From: Flavobacterium undicola
GTDB taxonomy: Bacteria > Bacteroidota > Bacteroidia > Flavobacteriales > Flavobacteriaceae
Assembly: GCF_009909155.2 (NCBI RefSeq)
Contig: NZ_JAAAPM020000007.1
Span: 1-64,000, forward strand
Direction: 5' to 3'
Length of the DNA: 64,000 nucleotides
Position numbers and translations under genes: made by a program. The notes under the pieces were generated by a model that ran no database searches, was not told the origin of the DNA, and saw only the letters and a list, made by a program, of their open reading frames with translations. How positions within the stretch are numbered: position 1 is the stretch's first letter; the number at the start of each line of letters is the position of its first letter. This document shows positions 1,597-40,964 of the stretch, in pieces.

Positions 1597-1741
1597 TTGC
1601 GTTAGGGGGTGAAGCGGATAGCCCACAGTCCCGTCTCGTCTTTTGGGACGAGACGGGACGAGGACTTGTAGCGGAAAACCCGACCTCGTTGCGGAACAAA
1701 ATAGAATATTTTACGGAAAAGTGCTGCAACGAGGTAACGCC
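1597..1741. repeat. Structured intergenic repeat, copy A
   Basis: This 145-base element fills most of the gap between the MATE and GH43 genes. It contains a perfect 13-bp hairpin (1628-1640 with 1647-1659) and a second 10-bp stem (1683-1692 with 1726-1735), and its outer ends GCGTTA (1599-1604) and TAACGC (1735-1740) also pair. Between the hairpins is an AGCGGAAAACCCGACCTC box. The order of boxes and hairpins matches the element at 26.28-26.41 kb read on the other strand, although the stem sequences differ. It is likely a dispersed repeat of Flavobacterium intergenic regions. Small ORFs on both strands here are by-products of the repeat. Confidence 0.7.
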
Positions 1742-4653: not shown

Positions 4654-4745
4654 TCCTAGCCCTGATGGAAGCGGCATCCTTTTTCTTGTCTCGTTCTTAA
4701 AACGAGACAAGAAAAAGATAGAGCAGACAGCGGGAAATAGCTCCT
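4654..4745. repeat. Structured intergenic repeat, copy B
   Basis: A perfect 17-bp hairpin (4679-4695 with 4701-4717, loop CTTAA) is flanked by the boxes CCTGATGGAAGCGGCATCC on the left and AGCAGACAGCGGGAAATAGC on the right. The GAAGCGGCATCC box resembles the GAAGCGGATAGCC box of copy A. The element lies between the MFS gene and the prfA promoter and could also stop transcription, although no clean T-run follows the stem. Confidence 0.65.
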
Positions 4746-26282: not shown

Positions 26283-26408
26283 TTTGGGCGTGACCTCTTT
26301 GAAAAAACAAGAAAAATGTTTTTCAAAGAGGTCGGGCTTTTCACTCCCGCTTTTATAAACTAGACGAAAAGTCTAGTTTATAAAGAGCTCTGTTACAATC
26401 CCTCACGC
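26283..26408. repeat. Structured intergenic repeat, copy C
   Basis: Two perfect hairpins are present: 26292-26306 with 26319-26333 (15 bp) and 26352-26365 with 26371-26384 (14 bp, loop GAAAA). Read on the minus strand, the order is GCGTGAGGGATTG, hairpin, AGCGGGAGTGAAAAGCCCGA, hairpin, GAGGTCACGCCC, the same as copy A at 1.6 kb but with unrelated stem sequences. It separates the crt genes from the SRPBCC-photolyase genes. Confidence 0.72.
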
Positions 26409-40901: not shown

Positions 40902-40964
40902 TTTTTTTAAGCTGAATTAATTTCAGTTTTAGTACTTAGTTTTCTTTGTCTTTAGTTCCAAGTA

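Follow-up and report, generated by a model that had tools for sequence, protein, structure and literature searches.

The window analysed here, a stretch of 64,000 nucleotides (64 kb) from Flavobacterium undicola, contains three copies of a structured repeat, referred to as A, B and C (Table 1). Copy A is located between a MATE gene (Pfam MatE) and an open reading frame at position 1758, and the neighbours of copy C are a crtZ-like and an SRPBCC-like gene, both named by eye with weak Pfam matches. A preliminary description of this DNA had proposed that copies A and C share boxes and layout but not the sequence of their stems. The common layout, which consists of GCGTKAGGG, a perfect hairpin, AGCGG, CCCGACCTC, a second hairpin and GAGGTNACGCC, can be read directly in both. 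On the 5' arm, AGCGG is absent from copy C, which reads TAACAGAGCTC there, and a second AGCGG is present in copy A. The apical stems are indeed perfect yet unrelated, with GTCCCGTCTCGTC/GACGAGACGGGAC (13 bp) in copy A and TTTATAAACTAGAC/GTCTAGTTTATAAA (14 bp) in copy C. In the window, copies A and C are the sole sites of exact CCCGACCTC and GAGGTNACGCC. A single box is found at a frequency that is close to chance, as illustrated by GCGTNAGGG, which with up to one mismatch has 18 matches compared to 11.9 expected, a number that is reached in 2 of 100 shuffles. The ordered boxes and the folding of A and C exceed chance, with z-scores of the RNA fold of -5.9 for copy A and -6.6 for copy C, which is not equalled in any of 200 shuffles.

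The full unit is a three-way junction composed of an outer stem (P1), an arm (P2) and a second hairpin (P3). This junction is recovered in the RNA minimum-energy folds of copies A and C, most of P1 being absent in the RNA centroid of copy C, and the DNA folds of both copies retain P1, P3 and the apical P2 stem. The predicted fold of copy B contains the apical stem, and the closing pairs typical of its class, described below, are not recovered.

Table 1. Repeat copies in the 64-kb window and element loci sharing a palindrome or a second repeat.
Feature	Position	Strand	Evidence and remarks
Copy A, class II, whole three-way junction	1599..1741	+	boxes at 1599-1607, 1679-1687 and 1731-1741; RNA fold
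Copy A, P1 5' strand GCGTTA	1599..1604	+	partner TAACGC at 1735-1740; sequence
Copy A, P2 apical hairpin, 13 bp	1628..1659	+	loop 1641-1646; sequence and fold
Copy A, P3 hairpin	1683..1735	+	base ACCTCGTTGC/GCAACGAGGT; sequence and fold
Copy B, class I Flavo-1 (TAGCCC...AGCGGGA...GCTCC), 17-bp apical stem	4654..4745	+	RF01705, 71.2 bits over 4654-4741
Copy C, class II	26287..26408	-	RF01705, 43.7 bits over 26427-26326; fold
Copy C, P2 apical hairpin, 14 bp	26352..26384	-	loop 26370-26366; sequence and fold
Copy C, P3 hairpin, GACCTCTTTGAAAAA...TTTTTCAAAGAGGTC	26292..26333	-	sequence and fold; P3 almost unchanged at the orthologous site in G005
Palindrome-bearing copies of the own genome			L032, L063, L065, L071, L073, L075, L081, L086, L090
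Second-repeat loci			L082, L086, L244, L260, L263, L284, L307

The repeats belong to a known motif, the Rfam family Flavo-1 (RF01705). In a covariance-model search of the window, copies B (71.2 bits) and C (43.7 bits) pass the cut-off of 42 bits, and there is no match to copy A at E ≤ 10, whose placement in the family is thus based on its position and its boxes; an element beside the same MATE gene in the relative G005 (L390) scores 47.9 bits. Further copies, a search for which had been suggested in the preliminary description, were found by the dozen in the genome containing the window (the own genome, G000), with at least 61 matches at E ≤ 10 and at least 44 above the cut-off among the 150 of 1191 candidates that were scored. 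Since copies A and C are absent from the listed matches, this count is a lower bound. In light of these dozens of copies, the outcome that the preliminary description had held against its own proposal, a genome devoid of further copies, did not occur. The repeats are also present in related genomes, as four members of the same genus contain 64, 60, 87 and 68 matches (E ≤ 0.01), respectively. In an order-wide sample with up to 15 candidates scored per genome, at least 88 of 296 genomes contain a match at E ≤ 1e-6, and among those listed this is the case for 25 of the 26 genomes of the same genus, the own genome included. A pattern describing one 3' module of the class II elements defined below occurs in at least 119 stretches; among the matches listed, 72 of 80 loci carry Flavobacterium in their title, the remainder being records titled Flavobacteriaceae or Bacteroidetes and a single Spirosoma bin.

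The Rfam model of the Flavo-1 RNA, which was introduced by Weinberg et al. (2010; PMC2864571) and which corresponds to the P2 arm of the present elements, covers 76 positions and one arm, thus leaving P1, P3 and class II, with its inverted closing pairs, outside. Rfam files the family as an sRNA gene, whereas we are inclined to read it as a mobile repeat. The titles and the opening lines of the abstracts of the listed papers on Flavo-1, intergenic repeats and template switching contain nothing on P1 or P3, class II, stem turnover or mobility. While the motif itself is known, its full anatomy, the second class, the turnover of stems and the evidence for mobility are new.

The layout of the two classes is as follows. 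Class I elements consist of TAGCCCYGATNGNAGCGG, the apical stem and AGCGGANAGCRGGA, followed either directly by TAGCTCC or by a further hairpin and GCTCC. Class II elements consist of GCGTKAGGGATNG, AGCGG or AGTGGAGCTC, the apical stem, AGCGGANAGCCC, GACC, P3 and GGTMACGCC, with P1 being formed by GCGTKA and TMACGC. The closing triplet is inverted between the classes, with CCC..GGG in class I and GGG..CCC in class II, and P2 is the Rfam hairpin, whose internal loops are purine-rich (AGCGG) and whose apical stem is free. Covariation was quantified on those of 218 sequences that could be parsed (83 copies of class I and 98 of class II). Orthologs recur among them, and since related copies are included, the shuffles understate the spread. 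The four tested pairs all covary far beyond the shuffles. Pair X of class I is Watson-Crick in 78 of 83 copies (TA 34, CG 31, AT 10 and GC 3, besides TG 4 and AG 1), compared to a mean of 30.3 and a highest value of 45 in 2000 shuffles. Equivalent results were obtained for pair N of class I (80 of 83 copies; shuffled mean 32.2, highest 46), pair N of class II (93 of 98; mean 33.2, highest 50) and pair K-M of P1 (87 of 96 class II copies; mean 59.6, highest 69).

Several elements depart from this common anatomy. In a class I variant (L077, L079 and L084), GAGCCGA and AAGGCGA replace the AGCGG loop in one or both arms, resulting in a longer G-C helix with GA mismatches, whose layout is the same and whose sequence is different. 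In nine class I copies of the own genome, a short palindrome of the CCTGTCTGCCGACAGGC type occupies an identical position in the 5' arm, being exact in seven and a variant recognised by eye in two. Most of these copies differ in their apical stem, as would result if the histories of the stem and of the body were separate. At seven loci (Table 1), a second repeat with (G)AGTTCAGTGAACTTCGTTTG or, as judged by eye, a closely similar form is found inside one Flavo-1 arm or in its place.

The strong covariation and the junction found in the minimum-energy RNA folds of copies A and C agree with a reading as structured noncoding RNA, either an sRNA or an untranslated-region element, where each copy would be transcribed and work as RNA, which we consider rather unlikely. 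Mismatches in the stems bear on this question from both sides. P2 apical stems were parsed in 141 of 153 elements, with copy A and the four loci L087-L090, the latter probably false matches, among the 12 exceptions, and they contain 1819 Watson-Crick pairs, with 102 stems being perfect. Their mismatches comprise 24 G.T, 8 A.C and 23 others, of which 14 are A.G or G.A. As control, 85 hairpins of intrinsic terminators at the same loci, which were subjected to the same scoring treating G.T and A.C alike, contain 929 pairs, with 48 hairpins being perfect, and 26 G.T, 9 A.C and 9 other mismatches. With orthologs recurring in the counts, the excess of G.T over A.C in all sets of P2 stems (24:8, p 0.007) is like that of the terminators (26:9, p 0.006), which favours the RNA reading. 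It also lends support to selection on the folded strand, one of the two agents that the preliminary description had suggested for the preservation of pairing. However, the excess stems from relatives and not from the own genome, where 44 of 54 parsed stems are perfect and G.T and A.C are balanced (3:3). It is found in G005 (5:0, with 25 of 33 stems perfect), in other best-scoring copies (7:0, with 21 of 28 perfect) and at the copy C locus of relatives (9:5), where 12 of 26 parsed stems are perfect and 14 contain at least one mismatch, compared to 90 perfect stems among 115 elsewhere. In a second set, which retained 62 class II copies after 18 of 80 had been dropped for P2 (23 for P1/P3), the ratio of 7:4 is not significant. 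Moreover, the P2 stems contain fewer G.T per pair than the terminator hairpins do (p 0.01), and a higher share of them is perfect (102 of 141 compared to 48 of 85, p 0.02). In single-stranded DNA, G.T is also the milder mismatch, and its excess can therefore not separate RNA from DNA. Collectively, pairing is kept well, although not absolutely.

In contrast to its pairing, the sequence of the apical stem is nearly free, while the fold is conserved, as is evident at sites shared between genomes. In 23 site pairs of G000 and G005, the P2 stem is identical in 4, altered by one paired change in 2 and by a one-sided G.T in 1, different in 15 and unparsed in 1; this set includes three loci of uncertain orthology in a multicopy region (L010, L063 and L081) and one matched by a single flank (L019). 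The copy C locus was compared at 37 orthologous loci, which are the best-scoring of 165 matching genomes among 398 plus some extra and thus not a random sample. The element is found in the same place and orientation in 30 of them, looks decayed in 2 and is absent in 5. These 30 elements carry 27 different apical stems, 30 P2 arms and 26 P3 hairpins. The different stems in 15 of 23 site pairs and the 27 stems at 30 loci uphold the view expressed in the preliminary description that a process retains pairing while letting the sequence change. Orthologs of copy B in relatives also carry other stems, and at this locus a C.A mismatch in G046 (92% identical) stands against T.A in G066, an example of a one-sided step. 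In stems that can be aligned, two-sided changes are few, with five cases, four of transversion type and three located in the element L008, versus two one-sided changes.

The copy C locus also provides insight into the way by which stems might be replaced. When classified by its stem-adjacent boxes, P2 falls into five types, and the flank-gene tree of the 30 loci requires at least seven changes of type, where four would be the least possible. In a clade of seven members that includes G000 (support 100/99), G000 carries type alpha, four members carry beta and two gamma, with P1 recognisable in all seven and P3 in six. The beta stem-loop of P2 resides at the copy C locus in G046, G066, G005 and G195, and an identical stem-loop recurs at a different locus, on a different contig, in both G000 (L085) and G005 (L163), as an exchange of modules between copies would leave it. 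The P3 loop of G046, ACAAGAAAAATGT, corresponds exactly to the reverse complement of ACATTTTTCTTGT, the loop present in five relatives. This inversion, common to five pairs, is the single event in 595 pairs scanned at the copy C locus, and there was none in 28 pairs of copy B or in 21 G000/G005 pairs. Loop inversion and compensatory change of several pairs, both of which Flavo-1 has in common with the template switching of RNA hairpins, are described as footprints of this process in PMC8794818, which concerns rRNA and microRNA genes, whereas here template switching would act in a repeat of many copies with otherwise free stem sequence. The exchange of modules between loci and the single loop inversion thus argue for a copying mechanism, the second agent that the preliminary description had proposed.

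The surroundings of the elements bear on whether they act in the expression of neighbouring genes. Based on a longest-frame rule instead of a gene caller, and with orthologs of G000 and G005 counted twice, both neighbours were called for 107 copies from G000, G005 and a further set. Those located between co-directional genes comprise 47 antisense and 23 sense copies, and the others separate divergent (27) or convergent genes (10). The orientation between co-directional genes is strongly antisense in the own genome (26 antisense, 5 sense, p 0.0002), a bias that is not common to the relatives, with 13 antisense and 7 sense copies in G005 and 8 and 11, respectively, in the other set. By eye, coordinates of G010 reveal no clear pattern with respect to the replication strand. 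The occurrence in either orientation relative to neighbouring genes speaks against the RNA reading. The same is the case for PMC9723704, in which Flavo-1 matches are sense or antisense to transcripts, with many located outside transcribed regions, and which thus argues against consistent transcription.

A role as transcription terminator or mRNA-stabilising hairpin, whose stems would turn over as those of terminators do, could account for the stem vocabulary (TCTCGT..ACGAGA and CCCGA..TCGGG) that by eye is common to the elements and nearby terminators. However, this role was rejected on account of placement and arm composition and appears very improbable. The positions relative to gene ends, to which the preliminary description had drawn attention, speak against it, with 10 of 107 copies between convergent and 27 of 107 between divergent genes. 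In addition, the P2 stem has a T-rich 5' arm and an A-rich 3' arm, which is the reverse of what an intrinsic terminator would have, and by eye at least three copies (L065, L068 and L082) lie beside a separate terminator-like hairpin. The arrangement of intrinsic terminators, a GC-rich hairpin followed by a T run at the 3' ends of genes, was not found for the elements.

Evidence concerning mobility and REARRANGEMENT comes from a class I element at C10:38114 of G005 (L406), which is missing from the corresponding syntenic position of the window (near 40930) as well as of G066, G357, G335 and G407. The flanks of this site are homologous on both sides in the compared genomes, and RF01705 has no match at the empty places of the window and the relatives. 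On the basis of this comparison, the element would represent a gain in the lineage of G005 or, less simply, several losses elsewhere. It constitutes one case of insertion polymorphism, the kind of difference by which MITEs are recognised, and since the flank is variable, a target duplication cannot be read at the single empty site.

A second kind of change is found at copy A. G005 has the order MATE gene, element and yebC-like gene, the last named by eye, and the flanks in G407 and G195 are homologous to this arrangement on both sides. The order in G066 is tRNA-Phe, tRNA-Leu, element and the ortholog of the region at 1758. In G000, the halves of the two loci are exchanged, with the MATE gene, copy A and the frame at 1758 in the window and tRNA-Phe, tRNA-Leu, an element and yebC on contig C3, where the latter is a remnant of the last 33 residues without other match in the genome. 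This exchange places the junction at or next to the element, with a second break about 180 bp away on the C3 side. P2 and P3 of copy A resemble by eye those of the MATE locus in G407, suggesting a crossover near the 3' end. The regions involved are 1-2729 of the window and C3:132700-133724 (L070), where the MATE/yebC-like locus joins the tRNA-Phe/tRNA-Leu/GH43 locus in the vicinity of an rRNA operon. For such a junction to arise, homologous recombination of the ordinary kind between a pair of 140-bp copies would suffice, and it may also be a misassembly, as contig C3 ends close by and contig C67 begins beside the rRNA operon. A search by both flanks revealed no ortholog of copy A in the 10 genomes that matched among 398, which include the own genome. 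The 42 element loci of G005, to which the copy A case was added after it had been noticed, match element loci of G000 by both flanks in 21 cases, by one flank in 3 and by neither in 18. Of these 21, 19 agree, and the other two are a locus within a multicopy region and the copy A case. Recombination between elements as a frequent process was thus discarded, with one clear case among the 42 loci.

The junction between elements at copy A, together with conserved boxes and free stems, brings to mind recombination sites of the attC kind in integrons, which act as folded single strands whose boxes are conserved and whose stem sequence is free. In attC sites the boxes are inverted, whereas on inspection the AGCGG boxes of the two arms are direct repeats, and we thus regard this relationship as extremely improbable.

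Dispersed intergenic hairpins are a feature that Flavo-1 shares with REP/REPIN elements, which are moved by RAYT transposases of the Y1 (HUH) type. The link to a RAYT-type transposase that had been envisaged in the preliminary description did not find support in a Y1_Tnp search of the own genome and six relatives, in which no mobilising enzyme was identified. G000 contains two Y1 transposase genes, including one for a RAYT-like protein at C6:85250, whose presence would be in line with such an element, as would the motif GTAG within TGTAGCGG, which PMC3733652 describes as the tag of one REP superfamily, with compensated stem variants and G.T pairs also reported for REPs. However, the RAYT-like gene is by eye flanked by other palindromes and not by Flavo-1, and a RAYT gene is not present wherever the repeats are numerous. 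The one contig of G010 contains 60 Flavo-1 matches, and its sole Y1 match is a 156-residue frame of IS200 size; G019 has 68 matches and one weak Y1 match. On these grounds RAYT was rejected as partner. Compared to REP/REPIN, whose palindromes span 20-40 bp, the unit is a larger three-way junction of 120-150 nt with free stem sequence in each copy, and the assignment to this group is improbable. The hairpins of the RAYT-like gene itself (L122, 1200-2030; C6:85250 of the own genome), GGTACTCG..CGAGCACC and GGCGCTCG..CGAGTGCC, differ in sequence and keep their pairing.

Phages and plasmids were also considered as vehicles. Copy B has no match in 72,556 plasmid records, and another class I copy has one weak partial match in 50,697 phage records. 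A Flavo-1 copy of 61.1 bits with an exact 3' module is found on an IMG/VR viral contig (L349, 1827-1913), which may be the host flank of a provirus. With no plasmid match, one weak phage match and one viral contig that is possibly host flank, carriage by either was rejected.

ERIC-type and MITE-type repeats are intergenic, non-coding stretches of about 100-150 bp that are present or absent between relatives. Flavo-1 resembles them in size, intergenic place and presence or absence between relatives, and it differs in that its conserved part consists of internal boxes and pairing, while transposon termini or a target duplication were not identified and no autonomous copy was noticed. The reading that we favour, with some reservation, is that the elements are a dispersed mobile-type repeat without genes of its own, which is kept for its fold and whose modules are exchanged between copies. 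It draws on direct observations of copy number, of fold and covariation, of stem turnover, and of one gain, one rearrangement junction and one loop inversion. In such a repeat, whole P2 modules would be exchanged between copies by recombination or gene conversion through the conserved boxes, with gene conversion being the presumed route, and the arms would be rematched by selection and perhaps also by hairpin-templated DNA synthesis, where template switching might act. The folded strand could be the substrate of a mobilising or binding enzyme. A more far-reaching version of the mobile repeat appears doubtful to us. It holds that pairing and not sequence is inherited and that the folded single strand is moved. 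In each passage or replication, one apical arm could then be rewritten from the other by template switching, or the stem swapped with other hairpins of the genome, including terminators, so that hairpin cassettes would be traded on a fixed three-way-junction chassis.

Flavo-1 has been an unexplained motif since 2010, and a review (PMC9029176) names it in a section devoted to the small RNAs of highest abundance. Should it prove to be a mobile repeat, many of the small RNAs now annotated would probably have to be relabelled. With dozens of copies per genome, shared sites and nearly free stem sequence, Flavo-1 offers many natural replays of stem change, and it would thus allow one to measure whether compensatory change proceeds in two single steps under selection or in one copying event.
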